Origin: Artemia franciscana
Lineage: Eukaryota > Arthropoda > Branchiopoda > Anostraca > Artemiidae
Reading direction: 5' to 3'
Assembly (NCBI RefSeq): GCF_032884065.1
Contig: NW_027062617.1
Location: forward strand, 1,302,001-1,366,000
Length of the DNA: 64,000 nt
The translations under genes and the position numbers were made by a program. Below the pieces are notes generated by a model, which searched no databases, was not told the DNA's origin, and saw only the letters and a program-made list of their open reading frames with translations. Below, piece by piece: positions 12,965 through 52,722 of the stretch; position 1 is the first letter of the stretch, and each line of letters opens with the position of its first letter.

Positions 12965-14623
12965 TAAATAAAAAAAACAAGTTTTTTTAAATGAAAGTAA
13001 GGAGCAACATTAAAACTTAAAACGAACAGAAATTACTCCGTATATGAAAGAGGCTTTTCCTCCTCAACGCCCCGCTCTTTACGCTAAAGTTTGACTCTTT
13101 CTCTTAACTCTATTTTTAAAACAGTTGGAAAGTTTAGCGTAAAGAGCGGGGCGCTGAGGAGGAAAACCCCCTTTCATATACGGAGTAATTTCTTTTCATT
13201 TTCAGTTTTAATCTTGCTCCTTACTTTCATTAAAAAAAACTTGTTTTTTTATTTAATTTCTGGACGTTTTTGAATTAATGCATGTTTTGATCTTGGCTCT
13301 CCGCACATAAATAATTAAAACGTAATTTGCATATTAATTAATTGCAATTAATCGGAAGATTTTGAGAAAAGAGGAGCGAGGGAGGAGGCCTTGTTGCCCT
13401 CCAAGTTTTTGATTACTTAAAAAAGTAACTAGAACTTTTAATTTTTTACAAACGTTTTCATTGGTAAAAAATATACGTAACTTACGAATCAACTTACGTA
13501 ACGAACTTCTATATTCGTATGTTTTTATTGCGTATATGAGGGGGTTCAACCTTCGTCGCTCTTTACACTAAAGCTTAGATTTTGTCCCAATTCCTTAAGA
13601 ATGACCTCTGAATCACAAAGGCCGTAGAATAAATAGTTGAAATTACTAAAAATACTTTGGCGTAAAGAGTGAGGTATAGCGAGGAGGTAAACCCGTCATA
13701 TGCGTAATAATTTATTTTTGTTTTAAGTTTTAATGCTGCTCCTTACTTTCAGTACAAAAAACTTTTCATATTTATTTTTTCATTATTTTTTCAAATAATT
13801 CTAGAAAATCCTGCGCCCATTCATTGAAATTCCCTTCCCCCATGGAAATATCCTCCCACTAACCCCTTCCCCTCAACTCCCCCCCCCCCTAAACCAAAAA
13901 AATACCCCTGAAAACGTCTGTACACTTCTTAGTAACCATTAATATATGTAAACACAGGTCAAAGTTTGCAACTTGCAGCCCCTCCCACGGGGACTGCGGG
14001 GGAGTAAGTCGTCCCCAAAGACATAGTTATTAAGTTTTTCGACGATGATGAATAAAATGTCCATCTCAGAATTTTGATCCGCTGACTTTTGGAAAAAATG
14101 AGCGTGGGAGGGGGCCTAGGTGCCCTTCAATTTTTTTGGTCACTTAAAAAGGGCACTAGAACTTTTAATTTCCGTTAGAATGAGCCCTCTCGCGACATTC
14201 TAGGACTACTCAGTCGATAAGATCACCCCTGGGAAAAAGAAACAAACAAGAAAACAAACAAAAAAAAAAAAAAAACAAATGAACACGCATCCGTGATCTG
14301 TCTTTTGGCAAAAATACGAAATTCCACATTTTTGTAGATAGGAGCTTGAAACTTCTATAAAACGGTTATCTGATACGCTGAATCTGATGGTGTGATTTTC
14401 ATTAAGATTCTATGACTTTTAGGGGGTGTTTCCTCCTATTTTCTAAAATAAGGCAAATTTTCTCAGGCTCGTAACTTTTGATGGGTATAACTGATCTTGA
14501 TGAAACTTATATATTTAAAATCAGCATTAAAATTCGATTCTTTTGATGTAACTATTGGTATCAAAATTCCATTTTTTAGAGTTTCGGTTACTATTGAGCC
14601 AGACTATTTACCACGAACTGTTT
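12965..14623 (+). mobile_element. Long foldback element F1, copy 2
   Basis: About 1.66 kb, collinear with 4441-6113: cassette 1 (about 12977-13250), AT-rich spacer, cassette 2 (about 13525-13760), C-rich stretch, poly(A) run and right end. It lies inside a composite-repeat unit, so the empty site can be inferred: GATAT stands at both edges (12960-12964 and 14624-14628), a likely 5-bp target duplication. The right-end hairpin is lost, with CTATTTACC in place of the left arm. Minus-strand translation over 13334-13549 gives a receptor-like peptide by chance. Confidence 0.85.
12977..13250. repeat. F1 inverted-repeat cassette 1 (copy 2)
   Basis: Both arms carry AATGAAAGTAAGGAGCAA where other copies have AACTGAAAGTAAGGAGCGAC. 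Both also carry TACTCCGTATATG and TTTTCCTCCTCA, so the arms share copy-specific variants. Core CTTTACGCTAAAG / TTTAGCGTAAAGAGCGGGGC. Confidence 0.85.
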
Positions 14624-15188
14624 GATATAGAAGGGTATACTGAAGTAACCAAAAGCCCCTATGTGCTAATTACTACTAAAGTTGCTGCTACTACGAATAC
14701 TGCTACTGCTGAGGCTAATGGTACTAAGGTGAAACTGTCAGGGAATGTTCAGGAGGAGTTTGAACTAAATAAAAAAACACTATATACAAACAGATTGTCA
14801 AAAGGGCATGTAAGATACTTTACATGTCCTTTAGAAACGGCTTAGGCTATTAAATTGAAACGTTCAGGATATGTTAAGGGGGATGTTGAACTAATCAAAA
14901 GGCATTATGTGTGTGCAACCCCTATTGCTAATATTACTACTGCTACGACAACTATTACTAATGAGTTTAATGTGTATTAAGGCGAAGCTTTCAAGGAATA
15001 TTTTGGGGGATTCTGAACCCAATGAAAACGCACTATGTGCAATCACGGTTGCCAAACAGGTATATCAGCAATTTTTCAGAAACACCTTAAAGTATTAAGT
15101 TGAAACTTCAAGGCCAGTTAAACTAACCAAAATACATTATGTACATACTGTAACTACTACTACTGCTATTTCTTCTGCTACTACTAGC
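14624..15188 (+). repeat. Composite ACT-bearing repeat array, forward orientation
   Basis: Two to three units: CCTATGTGCTAATTACTACTAA, GCTAATGGTACTAAGGTGAA, GGGAATGTTCAGGAGG, CAGATTGTCAAAAGGGCATG, TTAAATTGAAACGTTCAGG, then further triplets ending in ACTGCTATTTCTTCTGC. The intact LINE interrupts an ACT tract at about 15188. Confidence 0.8.
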
Positions 15189-15473
15189 ATTTCATGGTGT
15201 CAACATCTAAACTAATCGGATTATTTTTCATTTTCACAGACCTGATAGTCTGAGGTATGAATTTTAATCCCACTTGCTAGATCTCGCAGTATTTGGCAAA
15301 ATACCAGTTTTAATTAAAACTTGTGTGACGGTTTATCAAGGTGTCAACATCTATTGATTTTACATATTTGTTATTCTGTGGACTTAAATTGAATGTAAGG
15401 AGAGAGGGAGAGGAAAGAAAAAGAAACGAGAGGAAGGAGGAGTGAGTTAAGTTAGCCAGTTCTGAAGTTTGAA
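15189..15473 (+). promoter_or_regulatory. 5' leader of the LINE
   Basis: The 13-mer GGTGTCAACATCT occurs at 15196-15208 and again at 15340-15352, 144 bp apart, so the leader may contain two degraded copies of one promoter unit. The stretch just before ORF1 (15397-15445) is almost pure purine (GGAGAGAGGGAGAGG and similar). Internal promoter activity is inferred from position only. Confidence 0.5.
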
Positions 15474-16520
15474 ATGAGCAAGTTCAAGAAAGGGGATTTG
15501 GCGTTGGCAAAATTTAGAAATTACCCGCTTTGGCCAGTAAGAATTGTAGACGTTAACACCCAATCAGAAGAAACATCAAAGTTTCTAGTTTTCTGTTATG
15601 GATCCCATGATCTTCAGACAGTCTTAGAAGTAAATTTAGTTCTCTATGCGGAAAAGTCTAAAGAAGCATCACATAAAACTGAACGGAGCGTGAATAAGGC
15701 ATTTCAGGAGCTGGAGATTTTCCCGGATATCTACTTACAGTATTTAAAAAAAGCTCCCTCCGCTCAAACTGGCTCAAATTCTGAAAAATCATCGGTAGCT
15801 GTTCTTGTTGAAAAGTTAGTTTCTACGGAACAAGAGTTAGCACAAACAAAGCAAAATATGCTCAATGATATCGGGAAATTGGTCACAGAAAAGGTAGCAC
15901 AAAAAAATAGTATCAACCCAGTTACTGCTGAACAGATAATATCCCAAGTTTATGATGGATTATCAGTCGAATATAATGGTAAATTTGATAAAATTGGCAA
16001 AGTACTTAAGGGGTTAAGAGCTCAAATAGAGTCGCTGGAAAATCGTATTACAAAAATGGAAGATAGACTTGACGAGTATCAACAAGAAGCTCAGCTTGAT
16101 TCCCTTGTATTCGTAGGGGTCAAACAGGCCCCTGGTGTTGACCTTAAAGTAACAATGCACAATATAATAAAGGACAAAATGGGCTTGAGTGCTCTTATGA
16201 GTGATCAAATTCTTTCTATGCAACGTTTTCGCTTACCCAACCCTACAGCTCAGATTAGTGATGAAAGTCGAGTTGCCCCTGTGATTGTCAAATTTTCTAA
16301 TAAAGATGTTGCGCATACTGTCTTTAAAGCGAAGTCTAAGCTAGCGAAATCTGGTGTTTTTGTGAATGAATATCTCACGAAGCAGCGCAAGATTATCCTG
16401 GACAGTGCTAGAGATAAGTTCGGAGCAAAGAACGTTTGGTCGGACCAAGGCCGTATTTTTGCTCGCCTACCAGGTGAAGCTTCTTCTAGGAGGCTTAGGA
16501 AGGTTGAAGATACCTTCTAG
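15474..16520 (+). CDS. LINE ORF1 protein: PWWP + coiled coil + RNA-binding region
   Basis: 348 residues. Residues 3-60 resemble a PWWP domain: KKGDLALAKF, the signature variant YPLWP (17-21), then FLVFCYG (37-43). Aligned by eye with HDGF/LEDGF, F14, W20 and Y42 fall at the three aromatic-cage positions that hold methylated H3K36. Residues about 108-207 are heptad-rich (LVEKLVSTEQELAQTKQ, LRAQIESLENRITKMEDRLD) and should form a coiled coil. Residues 208-335 resemble the RRM-like and C-terminal domains of L1 ORF1 proteins: LVFVGV, VAPVIVKF, FVNEYLTKQRK, GRIFARLP. Expected role: RNA-binding chaperone that packages element RNA, here perhaps tethered to chromatin. ATG at 15474 is the first in frame after a purine-rich leader. 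ORF2 follows after 301 bp. The domain calls are by eye. Confidence 0.85.
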   Translation: MSKFKKGDLALAKFRNYPLWPVRIVDVNTQSEETSKFLVFCYGSHDLQTVLEVNLVLYAEKSKEASHKTERSVNKAFQELEIFPDIYLQYLKKAPSAQTGSNSEKSSVAVLVEKLVSTEQELAQTKQNMLNDIGKLVTEKVAQKNSINPVTAEQIISQVYDGLSVEYNGKFDKIGKVLKGLRAQIESLENRITKMEDRLDEYQQEAQLDSLVFVGVKQAPGVDLKVTMHNIIKDKMGLSALMSDQILSMQRFRLPNPTAQISDESRVAPVIVKFSNKDVAHTVFKAKSKLAKSGVFVNEYLTKQRKIILDSARDKFGAKNVWSDQGRIFARLPGEASSRRLRKVEDTF

Positions 16521-16688
16521 ATTAGTATCTTATTTTATTTCTCGTTTGTAGTATTTATTTGTTTATTGTTTTGTCTTCGTTTGTTTGATCTTTTCTTTTT
16601 TGTGAGTTATCTTGCTTATCTTCTTTTACCATTGTTTTGCTTATGATTCGTCTTGTTGGCCACTCTCCCCCCCCCCCCTATGGAGAAC

Positions 16689-16720
<32 letters not shown>

Positions 16721-16821
16721 CATTATTATTCCACCTGTCCCCGTATTGTAAAAAAAAAAATTATTCATATAGGTTAACTATGCGTTTATAATGATTCGCA
16801 AACTGATTATTTACGTACTAT
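16521..16821 (+). other. ORF1-ORF2 spacer of the LINE
   Basis: 301 bp between the ORFs with a C-run near 16670, a run of 29 T at 16692-16720 and an A-run near 16750. T-richness is very high. How ORF2 is translated (re-initiation or internal entry) cannot be read from the sequence. Confidence 0.7.
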
Positions 16822-19800
16822 ATGTCTGATCAGTTGAATGGCATGAATCGGTTGCGAAAATTTGAATCTGACCCTTTTCGACTGAATGATATACTTCGCG
16901 ATGGAATAGCAAATGATTATTTTGCAATTGATTTTGATTGCCAAAGATTGAGTAAATATATTCCAGTTACGTCGTCGTCATGGGAAAAAAGTGAGAATTT
17001 TCTTAGTGTATGCCATTGGAATTGTCATCTAACTACAAGTTATAATGATATCTTGCATTTGCTAGATCTGTCTAATAGCTATTTTGATGTTATTGGTTTT
17101 TGCGAGACTTTTTTGACTTCTGAGCATTTTCTGCCTTCATTTCAATTTCCAGGTTACCAATTATTTGTGAAAAACCGTGAGCTGATGTTAAGGGGAGGTC
17201 TAGCATTCCTTGTAAAAAATGGGATATTTTGCCGTCAAAGGGGGGATGTCGATGTTTGGATAGAGGGTAAGGTTGAATCGTTTACTCTTGAACTGGCTAT
17301 TGATTCAAAAAAACTTATTGTAAGTGAGGTTTATAAACCACCAAGTGCTCGTTTGGAGGATTTCACGGAAGGATTTGAGATATTAATGAGAGCTGTGGTA
17401 TCTAGCAAGTTAGATTTTATTTGTATGGGAGATTTTAATTTTGATTTGTATGATTTACATGCTATTAATCTTGATTTTTTAAATTTGATGGTTTCAAATG
17501 ATTTATTTCCCCTTGTTGGGGTCCCGACACGTATAACTAGTCATTCAGCAACTATAATAGATAACATTTTTGTTAGTTCGAAGTACCTGAAATCTAGTGC
17601 TGCTGATGTTCTGGTATTCCCATGTTCGGATCATCTCCCAGTTGTAGCTTCTGTGCCACTAGTAATGGCCAAAGAGAAAAAGGCAGAAAAAAAGCAAATA
17701 CGGCAATTAAGGAAGCAGAATATGGAAAACCTTGCTGAGGAACTTAGTAAGGTTTCATGGAAACCAGTTTTTGATGAGACAGAAGATGCATCCTATGCAT
17801 TTGATATTTTTATGAATATTCTCCAGCCGATATATGATAAAACATGTCCACTAAAAGTGTTGAGAAATACAAGGGAATCACCGAGAAAGCCGTGGGTTAC
17901 ATCAGAACTTCTTCAGATGATTAAGAAGATGAATCTACTGTATCAGTCATTTTTAGATTGCCAAAGTGCTGATATGTTTGAAGAGTTCAAAAAAATAAGA
18001 AATCAAGTGAATACATTACGAAGATCTTGTGTCAAGAGTTATTATGAATTGAAACTTGGGGAAACAAAGGGGGACTCAAGGGGAACATGGAAGGTTTTGA
18101 GAGAAGTGTTGGGTAGTGACAAGAAGAAAAATACACCAACTTCACTAATTGTGGATGGAAAAGTCTATGAAGGCAAGCAGAGCATTGTGAATCACTTTGG
18201 TGCCTACTTCTCGACGATTGGTGAAGTGGTTCAAAAGCAAGACCAGCCACTGAGTCAAGGAACAAGTGAGGAAGCTTTCATTGATGATAGAGGCCTGGGA
18301 CTAATAATGGAGGCTGAAGAAACGAATATGCAGGAGTTGAAAGAAATTGTAAATAGTATTAAGTCCAACTCTTCAGGTAGTGACGGTATAAGCCTTAAGA
18401 CATTCAAGCTTATTATGGTTTATCTCCTACCATGCCTTGTTTACATGATTAATTTATCACTGAAATCGGGAGAATTCCCGCAAAAGCTTAAAGAGGCGCG
18501 AGTGATTCCTCTTCACAAAAGTGGCTCAAAGACTGATCTGACTAACTGGAGGCCGATTTCTCTACTGTCGGTGTTCTCGAAAATGTATGAAAAAGTTATG
18601 CATAAAAAGCTTTATGCACATTTAACAAAACATGGTTTTTTAAGTGATAGTCAGTTCGGATTCAGGAAAGGACATTCTACTGTTCATGCTATGCAGCATT
18701 TTCTTGATTTTCTGAATACATCAATGGAAAATGGTGAAATGACTTTATCGGTTTTTATAGATTTTAAAAAAGCGTTTGACACGGTTGATTTTAAAATTTT
18801 AATTGATAGGCTAAGGTCACTTGGAGTCACAGGTAGTATTTTAAAGTGGTTTGAATCTTATTTGATAGGGAGGTCGATACGTGTATGTTTTGATGATGTT
18901 ATATCTAATAAATTTTTTATAAGTTGTGGTGTTCCGCAAGGTTCTGTTTTGGGTCCCTTACTATATCTTGTATATGTAGATACTATGCGGTTTTATGTTC
19001 CGGGTGTTGTTAATACTTCTTTCGCTGATGACACGGTATTTTCAGCTGCTGCAAGAAATGCTGATGATCTTGTGGAGAAAATTAATCAAGCTTTAAGTCA
19101 TCTTTTAATTTTTACAAAGATTAGCCGTTTATCAGTGAATGTTTTAAAAACTCATTTTATATTATTTAGTAGGAAAGGAAGTCCAGTTGATTTAAATGGA
19201 AAAATATTTCTTTGTAATAGGCCATTGAAACAAGTAGCTGTGGTGAGATACCTTGGTTTCCAGCTTGATCAAAATCTGAATTGGAAAGCACATGGTGATC
19301 AGGTGGCAGCTAGGGTATCTAGAGGGCTTGGATTGATTCGGCGTCTGAGAAATCAGTTACCTCATTCTGCCCTTTTAACTCTTTATCATTCTATTGTCAT
19401 GCCTTATATTTCTTATGGTTGTGTGATATGGGCTGGTGGATTTTATACAAATTTTAAACGTGTTCAGGTTTTACAAAATAAAGTTATTAGACTACTAGGA
19501 AATTATGTCCATGGTGAAAATGATACAGTTAATTGCTATAGGAAACTTATGATCTTTAATTGTAGCCAACTTCATGATTATCAACTTGCTATATTTGTAT
19601 TTCAGAGTATTTATGGTTTGTCCCCTGAAATTTTTCGTCAAATGTTTATAAGGAATTCTTCATACCACAGTTATGAGACTAGAAATATGGATGATTTGGT
19701 ATATGAGTGTCGCAGCTCTCAGAGGGGAAGTTTTGGTCCCAAGTTTGCTGGACCAGTAGTGTGGAATTCTTTACCAATGAGTATAAGGTTATCTGAAAAT

Positions 19801-19851
19801 GTTAGCCAGTTTAAGAGTAGACTGAAGAATCACCTTCTGAGTAGAAAATAA
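16822..19851 (+). CDS. LINE ORF2 protein: endonuclease and reverse transcriptase
   Basis: 1009 residues, uninterrupted. The N-terminal ~60 residues have no clear match. Residues about 60-280 are an EEP-type endonuclease: LSVCHWN (61-67, where related elements have an Asn-Ile-Arg block), catalytic-type Glu in FCET (E95), MGDFNFDL (202-209), TRITSHSATIIDNIF (236-250) and SDHLPV (269-274). A linker contains PRKPWVT and an SGSDGIS block (518-524). The RT follows: ARVIPLHKSG, NWRPISLLSVFSK, QFGFRKGHST (611-620), VFIDFKKAFDTVD (644-656; catalytic D647), GVPQGSVLGPLL (703-714), and SFADDT (733-738; D736, D737). A C-terminal region with a YGCVIWA-type block ends at residue 1009. It would nick target DNA and prime reverse transcription. 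All catalytic residues I can check are present, so it may be active. Confidence 0.93.
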   Translation: MSDQLNGMNRLRKFESDPFRLNDILRDGIANDYFAIDFDCQRLSKYIPVTSSSWEKSENFLSVCHWNCHLTTSYNDILHLLDLSNSYFDVIGFCETFLTSEHFLPSFQFPGYQLFVKNRELMLRGGLAFLVKNGIFCRQRGDVDVWIEGKVESFTLELAIDSKKLIVSEVYKPPSARLEDFTEGFEILMRAVVSSKLDFICMGDFNFDLYDLHAINLDFLNLMVSNDLFPLVGVPTRITSHSATIIDNIFVSSKYLKSSAADVLVFPCSDHLPVVASVPLVMAKEKKAEKKQIRQLRKQNMENLAEELSKVSWKPVFDETEDASYAFDIFMNILQPIYDKTCPLKVLRNTRESPRKPWVTSELLQMIKKMNLLYQSFLDCQSADMFEEFKKIRNQVNTLRRSCVKSYYELKLGETKGDSRGTWKVLREVLGSDKKKNTPTSLIVDGKVYEGKQSIVNHFGAYFSTIGEVVQKQDQPLSQGTSEEAFIDDRGLGLIMEAEETNMQELKEIVNSIKSNSSGSDGISLKTFKLIMVYLLPCLVYMINLSLKSGEFPQKLKEARVIPLHKSGSKTDLTNWRPISLLSVFSKMYEKVMHKKLYAHLTKHGFLSDSQFGFRKGHSTVHAMQHFLDFLNTSMENGEMTLSVFIDFKKAFDTVDFKILIDRLRSLGVTGSILKWFESYLIGRSIRVCFDDVISNKFFISCGVPQGSVLGPLLYLVYVDTMRFYVPGVVNTSFADDTVFSAAARNADDLVEKINQALSHLLIFTKISRLSVNVLKTHFILFSRKGSPVDLNGKIFLCNRPLKQVAVVRYLGFQLDQNLNWKAHGDQVAARVSRGLGLIRRLRNQLPHSALLTLYHSIVMPYISYGCVIWAGGFYTNFKRVQVLQNKVIRLLGNYVHGENDTVNCYRKLMIFNCSQLHDYQLAIFVFQSIYGLSPEIFRQMFIRNSSYHSYETRNMDDLVYECRSSQRGSFGPKFAGPVVWNSLPMSIRLSENVSQFKSRLKNHLLSRK

Positions 19852-19903
19852 ATAAATAATTTAAATTGGATGGCTTATTGATTTGTTTTTTTTAAGTGTT
19901 GTT

Positions 19904-19956
<53 letters not shown>

Positions 19957-20082
19957 CTTATTCTTTGTTTTCATGTTGTTTTCTTGTTCCCAATTTTTTT
20001 GTTTCATTTTTTTTTTTTTTTTTTTTTTTTTTTTCTTATTCTTTGTTTTCATGTTGTTTTCTTGTTCCCAATTTTTTTGTTT

Positions 20083-20139
<57 letters not shown>

Positions 20140-20173
20140 TTAATGTTGTTGGTATTGGTGCTCATTAATGTTT

Positions 20174-20217
20174 ATCAGCCACTACTAACAAGTCTCTGAC
20201 TTTCTAAAGTGGCTGAT
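20174..20217 (+). promoter_or_regulatory. Hairpin near the 3' end of the LINE
   Basis: ATCAGCCACT at 20174-20183 pairs exactly with AGTGGCTGAT at 20208-20217 around a 24-nt loop. In CR1/L2- and RTE-type elements a stem-loop close to the 3' terminus is often the site the reverse transcriptase binds; that role here is inferred. Confidence 0.6.
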
Positions 20218-20257
20218 GTGGTTTTTTTTGTATATTGATGATATGTATAATAAAAGT

Positions 20258-20278
20258 GTCCTCTCTCTCTCTCTAAAG
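20258..20278 (+). repeat. (CT)n tail of the LINE
   Basis: CTCTCTCTCTCTCT closes the element before host repeat sequence resumes. Short tandem tails replace poly(A) in many CR1-like elements. Confidence 0.7.
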
Positions 20279-22150
20279 AAGCCTTGCGACTTCTTCGTAA
20301 GGCTAATGCTTAGGAGGAAATTTTCAGGGAATGTTTAGGAGGATGTTGAACTAAATTGAAACAAACTATGTGCATGTAGGTTATCAAAAGGACATATCAG
20401 CAATATCCAAGAAACAACTTAGGGTTTTAGATTGAATCTTTCAGGGCATGTCAAGGGGGATATTCAACTATTCAAAATGAACTATGAACACAAAACTACT
20501 ACTGCAACAACTGATACTTCTGCAACAACTGCTACTGCTACTGCAATTACTATTTTAACTGCAACTATTACGAAAACCGCTACTACTACTTCTACTACTA
20601 AAATTAAGGGTATTGAGGTGAAACTTTTGGGGGTGAGGAGATACTGAACTATATTGAAACACACTGAGTAGACATTCAGGTTATCAAAAGGGCGTAATGG
20701 CTATATCTGAGGAACCACTTAGAGCATAAAGTTAAAACTTTTAGTGCATGTCGAGGGGATGTTGCATAAGCCAAAAGGTACTATATGTGTATTACTACTA
20801 CTACCTCTACCGCAACTACTACTAACACTAACAATACTGCTACTACACAATTACTACTACAGCAACTGCCACTGCTACTAAGGCAAAGAGGATTACGGGA
20901 AAAGTATCAGGAAATTTTCGAGGGAGATATCGAATTACATCGAAACATACTATGTGTGCAGGCAGTCAAAAGGGCATATAAGAAATATCTCATAAACTGC
21001 TTGAAGTATTAAGTTGAAACCTTCAGGGTCTCTTGAAGGGATGTTGAACTGTTTAAAAAGGGCCTATGGGCATACTACTACTGCTCATACTACTACTAGT
21101 AGCAGTACTACTCTTATTACTGCTAGTAGTGCTATTACTAAGGCTAAAATTATTAAGATAAAACTTTCAAGGATTGTTTAGGGAGATGTTTGACTAAATC
21201 AAAACCTACATGTGTGTCCAAGTTATCAAAAGGGCATATCAGCAATAGATCAGAGATGGCTAAAAACATTAAGGATGTTGGACTTTCAGGAAATGGTTGA
21301 GACGGCATTGAACAAAATTCAAATACACTGTTTGGATGCAGGTTGTCAAAAGGGCGCATCAGCAATATGAAAGGAACAGCTAAGGGTATAAAATTGAAGT
21401 TTTCATGGTATTTTGAGAGGAATATATAAATAAATCAAAACATACTCTATAAATGTGGATAATCGAAGAGGTATATCAGCTATATCCTAGTATCCACTAT
21501 GGGTAAAACTTTCAGTTTTACTAATATTATTACCACTTTTGCTACAGTACTACTACCGTCATTATTGATCTAGATTAAAACGGTTTAAATGAGTCCAGGT
21601 TTTAAAAATGAAATAGGTGGGATATCTTAGGACTAGAATAGGGTCTAAAGTAGAAACTTTAGAGGAATAGACATTTTGCTATAAAAATGAATCAAAAGGC
21701 ACAATGCGTATACTGGTTATCAATAAGACATATCAGTTATATCTCAAGAACGATTGAGGGGATTAAGTTGGAACTTTCACGGCTACTGATGTTACTACTA
21801 CTGCTGTTACATCTTTTAAACTAAATAAAAAGGGTTTAAGTGCATCTAGGTTGTCACAATGGCACAGATCCAGTGTCTTAGGAACATAATGAGGCAATAG
21901 GTTTTACTTTTCAGGGAAAGTTTAGAGGGTGTAAAACTAAATCAGAAGGTACTATCCGCATGTGCAATATTCCAGTAATAGCTAGTGGTGCTACGTTAGA
22001 ACTTAAGAGGATATTATTGGAAATGTTGAGTGAAATCTCAAGACACTATGTCCATCCGAATTTGTCATAAGGAAATATGTCAATATCTTTGGAGCGGACG
22101 AATGTATAAAGCAGAAGATTTTCAGGACAAGTTGAGGGGGATGTTCCATT
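20279..22150 (+). repeat. Composite ACT-bearing repeat array, forward orientation
   Basis: The clearest part of the array. A unit of very roughly 280-300 bp alternates two related halves. One half reads TTTCAGGGAATGTTTAGG, GATGTTGAACTAAATTG, ACTATGTGCAT, AGGTTATCAAAAGGACATAT and CAGCAATATC. The other repeats the TTTCAGGG..GATGTTGAA..ACTATGTG block and then runs into an ACT/GCT triplet tract (near 20495-20600, 20790-20880, 21075-21145). Units become shorter and more decayed after 21200 and fade near 22150. No coding capacity. It is the same unit as in the reverse-oriented half at 8560-11110. Confidence 0.8.
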
Positions 22151-34945: not shown

Positions 34946-35240
34946 AACTAATGGAGGATAATTTTTTATGGGTTACGTATTATGAAAAATATAATGAAAA
35001 AACGAATTTTTTTATAGTGATCAGTTTGGTATGGGAACTCAACAAAACACACGTTGCAGTTTTTGACGACTTTGGTTAATGATGCTTTGGATCGTGAAAT
35101 GAAGGTCGCTACAGTATTTTTAGATATTTTGAAAACTTTTGACACAGTTGACCATTGAATTTTATCGAAAGAAATTGGAGAATTGCGGAGTGAGAGGTAG
35201 TATCCTGAAATTAATATCTTCACATTCGAGTAACATATAA

Positions 35241-35716
35241 TTGTTTTTAAAAGTAAATAGTAGGCAGTCTCAAGATTTTAAAACTTCTTGTCAGATTCCC
35301 CTAGGATTACCCCTTGGCCCGTTATTTTTTCCTATATACATTCATGATATTTCTAATGAGATTTCTAGCCTGCACCATAGAGTTGAATCTAATGATGAGA
35401 CCCTTAAACCAGTGAAATCTTTAATATTATTTGCTGATGACACTTCATATACAGTGGCAGGAAGGTCTGAACAAGAGCTGGTTTAGATGCTATCAGATGA
35501 TATTGGCCAAGATTGAAAAGTGGCTGTGCCCCAGCAAATTGAAACTTGATTATAGTAAATCAACGTTCATAGTTTTTGGCCATTCAACAAATCATTATTC
35601 TTGGCTTAAGGACCTCAAAATTAGTCATACAATTGTGACTCGAAAGACATCAGTAAAGTATCTTGGTGACATTTTAGACGAAGTGTTAAGCTTTTTAGAT
35701 CATATTCAGTGTCTCA
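35241..35716 (+). pseudogene. Reverse-transcriptase remnant with intact FADD box
   Basis: Two overlapping open stretches in different frames (35241-35486 and 35431-35826) carry the RT core. The first holds the VPQGSVLGPL-type block, changed to PLGLPLGPLF, and the catalytic FADDT; the second holds the thumb KYLG block. A frameshift close to 35480 separates them. It is not functional. Confidence 0.85.
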
Positions 35717-35717
35717 C

Positions 35718-35927
35718 TTTATTTATTTATTTATTTGAAAACCCGTCAATCATACGAAATGAAAAAGACGGAGCAAGAACATATAAATATAAGAAAATAT
35801 ATAAGAACATATCAGAAGAGACATAACTAGAAAGAGACTCAACTAATAAAAGGGCAAACAACATAGCACTAAAATGAATAAAACGAAAACAGATCTATTG
35901 TAAAAGGAGATTATACCAATCGTGATC
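35718..35927 (-). mobile_element. Nested insertion in the LINE, probable antisense short retroposon
   Basis: The LINE reading (HIQCLT) is interrupted by about 210 bp that begin with TTTATTTATTTATTTATTTG, then resumes with CTACTAAATTTCGTGC. A leading TTTA run is what the AAAT-type tail of a retroposon in the opposite orientation would look like. Its body has no recognisable motif. Confidence 0.5.
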
Positions 35928-35933
35928 TACTAA

Positions 35934-35964
35934 ATTTCGTGCAACTTAAAAAGTTGCACGAAAT
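35934..35964. repeat. 14-bp perfect inverted repeat
   Basis: ATTTCGTGCAACTT, AAA, AAGTTGCACGAAAT. It lies inside the LINE coding region directly after the nested insertion. Confidence 0.85.
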
Positions 35965-36484
35965 ATACGAATTATTAGAAAAATGAAGCATTTTTTTCCA
36001 CAACATGTTTTAAGATTATTGTATTTTTCACTAGTCCATCCTTACTTGCTACTGTTGTTCGGTTTGGTCAAGTACATTCGCTGTTCACCTTGAACCATTA
36101 CTTATACTACAAAATTCTATTATTTGTATTTTAAATGGACGTGATACTCGGTTCTCAGTTAAATCAGCTTATTCAAAAATCCACATTTTGCCGCTTGCAG
36201 GCTTATTTATTTTTTATGTGTGTCTGTTTATGTTTGATTTGTCACATTTTCTAGTGCCTAATTGTTTCGGAAATATTTGTATTACTGTATCGCAATCTCA
36301 TAATTATAATGTTAGAAATTTTTTAGAATTTAGGAAACCACCTAAAAAATCCTCGCTGTTTGGGTTTTCAATGTGTCAAAACTTGCCTGTTGTATAGAAT
36401 TTGATTCTTGTGAGTTTTTATGAGGAGACTGAGAGGCTGGGAGCTGCTGAGGAACGATTGTCAGGGTTGTTATGAATTTAGATT

Positions 36485-40215: not shown

Positions 40216-40490
40216 GCCGTAGCAAAAAATGTGTTTTTTTTGCCGTAGCAAAAAACAGCAAATTTGCAGTCTCCGGTATTCGTCGTCATTACCTCTAGGA
40301 TTCGAAGCGGCCAGAGGGGATAGCCCACAAATTTGGCCAGGAATAAATCACCGATTTTAATGTTCGCAGGATTCATGCCTAGTAAATGAAAGATTATAAA
40401 GTGAAAGAAACTTATCTTTCCGAGAGGGCCAAGCCTCACTAATGTATCCAAGTGAACAATCAGTCCAAACTGTGCGTGGTGGCCCAACTG
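40216..40490 (-). pseudogene. PWWP-domain fragment, probably 5' end of a related LINE ORF1
   Basis: Minus-strand frame 40110-40487; the likely start is the Met at 40374-40376 (MNPANIKIGDLFLAKF). It carries KIGDLFLAKF, the signature variant YPLWP, and KFAVFCYG, the same spacing and wording as residues 6-43 of the intact ORF1 at 15474. The three cage-position aromatics (F of AKF, W of LWP, Y before G) are kept. The domain stops after CYG, where an 18-mer (TTTTTGCTACGGCAAAAA on the coding strand) is duplicated around AACACAT and the F1 cassette begins. Sequence between conserved blocks differs, so it is a separate subfamily or a host-like source. Its 5' neighbour (40377-40490) may be leader sequence. 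Truncated, not functional. Confidence 0.7.
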
Positions 40491-51480: not shown

Positions 51481-52722
51481 TCCCAACACATATTATGGAA
51501 TAGCTTATCTTATATCCGATAACAAAATTTTGGCAACAATTGCTAACTCTTTTACCAATAACCTTTACGCTTATTTTAGACAGCGCTACTACGCTGCCTA
51601 TGATCAGCAGTCCCAACACATATTATGGAATAGCTTATATACGAAAACAAAATTTTGGCAACAATCGCTTACTCCTTTACCAATAACCTTTACGCTTATT
51701 TTAGACAGCGCTACTGCGCTGCTTATGATCAGGAGTCCCAACACATATTATGGAATAGCTTATCTTATATACGAAAACAAAATTTTGGCAACAATCGCTT
51801 ACTCCTTTACCAATAACTTTTACGCTTATCTTAGACAGCGCTACTGCGCTGCCTATGATCAGGAGTCCCAACACATATTATGGAATAGCTTATCTTATAT
51901 ACTAAAACAAAATTTTAGCAACAATTACTTACTCCTTTACCAATAACCTTTACGCTTATTTTAGACAGCGCTACTGCGCTGCCTATGATCAGGAGTCCCA
52001 ACACATATTATGGAATAGCTTATCTTATATACGAAAACAAAATTTTGGCAACAATCGCTGTACTCCTTTACCAATAACCTTTACGCTTATTTTAGACAGC
52101 GCTACTGCGCTGCCTATGATCAGGAGTCCCAACACATATTATGGAATAGCTTATCTTATATACGAAAACAAAATTTTGGCAACAATCGCTTACTCCTTTA
52201 CCAATAACTTTTACGCTTATCTTAGACAGCGCTACTGCGCTGCCTATGATCAGGAGTCCCAACACATATTATGGAATAGCTTATCTTATATACTAAAACA
52301 AAATTTTGGCAACAATCGCTTACTCCTTTACCAATAATTTTTACGCTTATCTTAGACAGCGCTACTGCGCTGCCTCTGATCAGGAGTCCCAACACATATT
52401 ATGGAATAGATTATCTTATATACGAAAACAAAATTTTGGCAACAATCGCTTACTCCTTTACCAATAACTTTTATGCTTATCTTAGACAGCGCTATTGCGC
52501 TGCCTCTGATCAGGAGTCCCAACACATATTATGGAATAGCTTATCTTATATACGAAAACAAAATTTTGGCAACAAACGCTTACTCCTTTACCAATAACTT
52601 TTACGCTTATCTTAGACAGCGCTACTGCGCTGCCTATGATCAGGAGTCCCAACACATATTATGGAATAGCTTATCTTCATTACGAAAACATAGTTTCGCC
52701 GATAATCGCCTACTCCTTTAAC
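51481..52722. repeat. 130-bp satellite, about ten units
   Basis: Units start with TCCCAACACATATTATGGAA at 51481, 51611, 51736, 51866, 51996, 52127, 52257, 52387, 52517 and 52647. All are 130 bp except one of 125 (missing five bases of CTTAT) and one of 131. Identity is mostly above 95%. Each unit contains a 6-bp hairpin, CAGCGC-TACT-GCGCTG. The last unit decays at its right edge. Because 130 is not a multiple of three and two of three frames cross the junctions without stops, spurious frames of up to 138 codons arise (51530-51946). Confidence 0.95.

Follow-up and report, generated by a model that had tools for sequence, protein, structure and literature searches.

What directs a LINE to its insertion sites, apart from the motif that its endonuclease prefers, is still poorly understood, and a retrotransposon in the genome of Artemia franciscana raises it in a particular form: does this LINE carry its own chromatin reader? 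The element lies in the 64,000-nucleotide stretch of DNA that we analyzed (the window), and an earlier note, made from the sequence alone, had proposed that its ORF1 begins with a PWWP domain, which would serve the element as its own chromatin tether.

The boundaries of the window copy were mapped by comparison with 19 other copies of its family, F1. This placed the whole LINE as inserted at 15190..20274 on the forward strand, near-full-length and approximately 15 bp short of the usual 5′ start of the family. The upstream sequence from about 15185 was common to 10 of the 19 other copies at 99–100% identity; eight of these ten have the usual family start CAGTACTGAAATAGC-TTTCATGG, L004 and L014 being slightly shorter, and the window copy starts at the TTTCATGG (15190) of this start. 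In L009 and L015 the upstream match begins later, while L018 and L019 have no upstream match. The remaining copies, L012, L013, L016, L017 and L020, match in the 5′ UTR only from about 15445, that is, they combine another 5′ UTR with the same ORF1. At the other end, 15 of the 19 other copies have AATAAAAGTGTC(TC)n in their 601-base 3′ stretches, and L014, L017, L019 and L020 lack it there; L012 and L013 have a common 3′ flank and are therefore probably one duplicated insertion. Duplications of 4–5 bp were seen by eye in three of the ten copies with both junctions (L002, L004 and L010), with none clear in the other seven; the range given for target-site duplications of L2 and CR1 is 3–5 bp (PMC4245944). 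Because the 5′ end is common to other copies, the PWWP belongs to the element itself, some 300 bp in from where the element begins, and a host exon or chimera artefact was ruled out on the same ground.

Within these boundaries and all on the forward strand, a 5′ UTR (15190..15473, from the comparison of copies) precedes ORF1 (15474..16520), a single uninterrupted frame of 348 aa. ORF2 follows at 16822..19851 and, as the earlier note had read it, is intact: its open frame of 1009 aa carries an APE-type endonuclease (PF03372, E 5.3e-8) and a reverse transcriptase (PF00078, E 8.2e-33), as in LINEs of the Jockey superfamily. The 3′ UTR (19852..20274) contains T-rich 78-bp tandem repeats with 94% matches at 19916-20127, and has the (TC)n end. 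Around the LINE, imperfect TAC-rich tandem repeats of about 280–300 bp occupy 14552-15180 and 20300-21500. A second PWWP-ORF1 relic, F3-like with FCYGKK, was found on the reverse strand at 40242..40376 (61.5% over 39 aa, E 2.6e-11); it holds the first 45 codons of ORF1 and stops after approximately these, with other sequence next to it and no remaining ORF1. Elsewhere in the window, 35033-36319 has weak reverse transcriptase similarity to ORF2 of the LINE in several pieces and is a relic of another LINE, and 51481-52720 is a 130-bp (391-bp) tandem repeat with 94–95% matches and long overlapping forward-strand open frames of 169, 143, 105 and 103 aa.

The proposed domain is supported by profile, by sequence and by predicted fold. 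PF00855 matched ORF1 with an E of 1.2e-8 and 35.8 bits against a gathering cut-off of 25.6, and the N-terminus (residues 1–93, 15474..15752) is predicted to fold into a five-stranded barrel (strands at 9–57) and a helical bundle (58–93), which bears out the PWWP at the start of ORF1. The closest solved structures were those of HDGF, HRP2, HRP3 and LEDGF, and titles of the HRP3 entries indicate that 6iiq holds TA-rich DNA, and 6iit both DNA and an H3K36me2 peptide; also among the matches was 6kco (LD23804p), which we take to be Drosophila JASPer. The coiled coil and the L1-ORF1-like RNA-binding blocks of the earlier note were likewise recovered, as model helices 107-143 and 149-206 (residues 107–206, 15792..16091) and as a LINE-1 ORF1p-like RRM and CTD (residues 207–348, 16092..16517). 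This body of coiled coil, RRM and CTD is that of a type II ORF1, known from CR1 and L2 and also from L1 and R1 (PMC4120745). The position of the type IIC PHD finger is filled by the PWWP in the window ORF1, and none of the 13 Pfam families matching ORF1 with an E of up to 1 is a PHD finger. The PWWP is of the HDGF/LEDGF type and integral to ORF1, and the element is probably a LINE of the Jockey/CR1/L2 kind.

Searching the 1.27-Gb Artemia franciscana assembly, in which the window is C31:1302001-1366000, with ORF1 by tblastn gave at least 122 matches (best 116 of 3455 candidates). At least 17 of them covered residues 1–348 at 97–100% identity, 16 being stop-free, and at least 35 distant ones (41–49% identity) ran from residue 5 or before to residue 340 or beyond with no stop. 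PF00855 gave at least 150 matches in the genome. We read 47 loci (L021-L050 and L070-L086, where L083 and L086 are by place the same as L030 and L029), 40 of which matched a sequence pattern. The seven that it missed comprise five LINE-like loci with stops or no suitable ATG (L022, L023, L024, L032 and L048), an F2 member without ATG (L070) and L021, which resembles a host exon; L025, L040 and L041 resemble host genes. Nine PWWP-ORF1 families were found in the genome, namely F1–F7, F9 and, as fragments only (L028, L031 and L044), F8. Four PWWP matches with 394-aa ORF1 frames at G000:C17:33243621-33263656, spaced by 6.6 kb, come either from a single LINE-bearing unit repeated in tandem or from the way the genome was assembled.

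Four further families, F10–F13 (P0003, P0004, P0008 and P0014), came from the protein collection, in which P0005 is identical to genomic copy L073 and P0022, a PWWP-bearing ORF1, is named as Artemia franciscana, the only named species among the protein matches listed. For P0004, no match at E ≤1e-120 was found among the best 116 of 3440 candidates in the genome, and this protein may come from another species; P0003, P0008 and P0014 are none of them close to any genomic locus read. The clade may therefore reach beyond the Artemia franciscana genome; the protein collections searched are no survey of animals. The viral contigs searched held no PWWP-bearing ORF1. No host donor gene was identified from an HDGF PWWP query and PF00855, taking the best 150 matches of each in the genome; the matches read were mostly LINE copies, and all four loci from the HDGF query (L099-L102) are LINE-like.

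Next, conservation was compared among 14 representatives, three of which are F2 variants. Although the PWWP-bearing families diverge to 38–48% ORF1 identity, the mean pairwise identity of the PWWP barrel (0.451) equals that of the RRM (0.450) and approaches that of the CTD (0.463), with lower values for the PWWP helices (0.345) and the coiled coil (0.375). F14, P18, W20, P21, F40, C41, Y42 and G43 of the barrel are invariant in all 14. Within families, the pN/pS of the PWWP was 0.39 in F1 (17 copies) and 0.34 in F6 (10 copies), each copy being counted against the medoid so that shared changes enter repeatedly; the binomial p was 0.017 for F6 alone and 0.0023 for both families pooled, F1 alone falling short of significance (p 0.10). 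The ratio was 0.20 between F6 and F7 and 0.29 within F2, most other family pairs being saturated at synonymous sites. Judged from these substitution patterns, the PWWP is under purifying selection within and between families. Since the domain is real, lies in ORF1, is kept across families and is under selection, the element carries a module of the chromatin-reader type.

Whether this module could read methyl-lysine depends in part on its cage. The LEDGF cage residues, which we take to be M15, W21 and F44, had been set opposite F14, W20 and Y42. In single-sequence and profile alignments alike, the FLVFCYG strand aligned with LPIFFFG/YQVFFFG, placing LEDGF F44 opposite C41 (codon 15594..15596) and LEDGF F45 opposite Y42; F14 and W20 thus held, and Y42 proved to be off by one. 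With F44 opposite C41, the cage is Phe-Trp-Cys compared with Met-Trp-Phe in LEDGF: two aromatic walls (F14 and W20) are kept but rearranged, the third position is Cys and never aromatic, and the trio is the same in 14 of 14 representatives. Host-like PWWPs with Phe at the third position are L021 (QFFG) and L025 (RFFG). Single copies deviating in the cage motif were L026 and L028 (FWYG), L024 (FFYG), L082 (LYYG) and L075 (FCYS), some of which otherwise have open frames. An aromatic third residue bears on methyl-lysine reading and is no condition for membership of the PWWP family.

A natural deletion of the domain was found in F9. P0009 and P0010 are 50% relatives without the PWWP. The genome family to which they belong, F9, includes copies with the PWWP (L085, 360 aa) together with at least 25 PWWP-less matches at 98–99% over the whole of P0009, 22 of the 25 stop-free and each with a 271-residue frame, too short for the domain. 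In all three copies read (L096-L098), 273 bp are missing in frame from between ATGTCGTCC and CGT(G/C)CTAAG, a common deletion that removes exactly the PWWP; they are 98–99% identical to L085 upstream of the deletion and 95–97% in the ORF1 body. ORF2 is open over the 460 aa read in L098 and broken in L096 and L097. That P0009 and P0010 represent an ancestral PWWP-less state was ruled out by the PWWP-bearing siblings and the common deletion. An intron was ruled out too, as the stretch begins with TGG and ends with TAT, with no GT-AG, and is missing from the genomic DNA of all three copies. The PWWP-deleted subfamily is young, and because its copies number at least 25 and are near-identical, an own PWWP is dispensable for spread in the F9 lineage, unless PWWP-bearing kin gave ORF1p in trans.

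In one family, modules have also been exchanged. In its RNA-binding half, F7 ORF1 has an identity of 0.66 to that of F6, while in all three copies (L093, L094 and L095) the main pieces of F7 ORF2 are 53–65% identical to F4 and about 30–36% to F6. By these identities, F7 (L081 with L093-L095) is an F6-like ORF1 joined to an F4-like ORF2, an exchange between LINE lineages. Reticulate ORF1 evolution has been described for the superfamily (PMC4120745), and F7 fits this description. For F5, the L092 stretch examined yielded no ORF2.

What, then, might the module do? The best explanation, though we consider it an even call, is that the ORF1 PWWP anchors the RNP to chromatin in a way that is helpful but not required for spread. 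A type II ORF1 has gained an HDGF/LEDGF-type PWWP at its N-terminus, and its protein, by analogy with LINE-1 ORF1p, would trimerise on the element RNA via the coiled coil, so that many PWWP domains would be displayed per RNP. Each might bind nucleosomal DNA, and perhaps methylated H3K36, weakly, and the avidity of many such contacts would keep the RNP attached to chromatin, most likely where genes are transcribed, making ORF2p nicking likelier at such sites or keeping the RNP nuclear. In Drosophila, JASPer binds H3K36me3 nucleosomes, and two cage mutations abolish the binding (PMC6877644). Against such anchoring count the never-aromatic third cage position, the near-identical F9 copies without the domain, the lack of significance for selection in F1 alone, the pI of the F9 PWWP, which at 6.1 is the sole non-basic one among representatives otherwise at 8.4–9.4 (LEDGF segment, 9.2), and the location of the window copy, embedded in a TAC-rich tandem repeat with no evident gene. 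A bolder version, which we hold only tentatively, is that a LINE clade internalised the LEDGF trick: ORF1p would read H3K36-methylated nucleosomes by its modified F-W-C cage and thereby carry the RNP into the bodies of transcribed genes, while the PWWP-deleted branch, its tether lost, would show a shift in insertion sites. Of the tether proposed earlier, what stands is a selected chromatin-reader-type module of the HDGF/LEDGF type in nine genomic and four collection families; against its strong form speak the invariant Cys wall and a PWWP-deleted lineage of at least 25 near-identical copies.

The Cys wall in 14 of 14 representatives would also fit a module that has lost methyl-lysine reading and binds nucleic acid or protein (RNP assembly, RNA or AT-rich DNA, partner recruitment). 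This reading is possible, if on balance doubtful: all but one of the 14 representatives have a basic PWWP, the domain is fused to an RNA-binding protein, and a PWWP of HRP3 has been solved in complex with TA-rich DNA, whereas F14 and W20 at the other cage positions are invariant in all 14, and the LEDGF cage too has one non-aromatic residue, Met. It is unlikely that the PWWP acts on the host side, competing with or mimicking HDGF/JASPer-like proteins such that copies stay transcribed or evade silencing with no steering of insertion, as an ORF1 protein acts in cis, for the most part on the RNA that encodes it. Drosophila JASPer and JIL-1, however, occupy telomeric LINEs and promote their expression (PMC6877644), and a domain of this kind is thus already linked to the expression of LINEs. 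The spread of the F9 branch after losing its PWWP might further suggest a useless passenger, a chance capture or a host exon fused to ORF1. This we regard as very improbable in view of the RRM-level identity at which the domain is kept between such divergent families, the purifying selection on it and the many distant stop-free matches spanning nearly all of ORF1.

Chromatin anchoring by the ORF1 PWWP can be approached in this species, where nine related families with a well-studied reader type occur in one genome with one PWWP-deleted young subfamily. As the latter stands beside PWWP-bearing siblings, the effect of the reader on insertion sites is measurable in nature. H4K16ac has been profiled by CUT&Tag in Artemia (PMC12527168), which brings an H3K36me3 map within reach.

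The nearest design described so far is the type IIC ORF1, which occurs in L2 and CR1 LINEs and has an N-terminal PHD finger followed by a coiled coil, RRM and CTD (Metcalfe and Casane 2014, PMC4120745). As here, a histone-reader-type domain precedes a Tnp22-like body in the same superfamily; unlike there, it is a PWWP beta-barrel and not a PHD zinc finger. A general targeting role was suggested for these PHD fingers, and that 2014 survey knew no functional study of them; the word PWWP is absent from its main text. Among the matches listed in the open-licence literature, we found no LINE with a PWWP, and a PWWP at the ORF1 N-terminus of a LINE appears undescribed. The novelty suggested earlier therefore extends to the PWWP variant and not to a histone reader at that place, which type IIC already has. 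By sequence and fold, the nearest PWWPs are those of LEDGF/p75, the HDGF family and Drosophila JASPer; all of these are host proteins, and LEDGF and HDGF have Phe at the third cage place, where the domain described here, within a mobile element, has Cys. To our knowledge, human LINE-1 ORF1p (2yko) has no PWWP at its N-terminus. Chromoviruses, Ty3/gypsy elements with a chromodomain on the integrase, are likewise retroelements with their own histone reader, but they are LTR elements, whereas the present element is a LINE that bears a PWWP on ORF1p.
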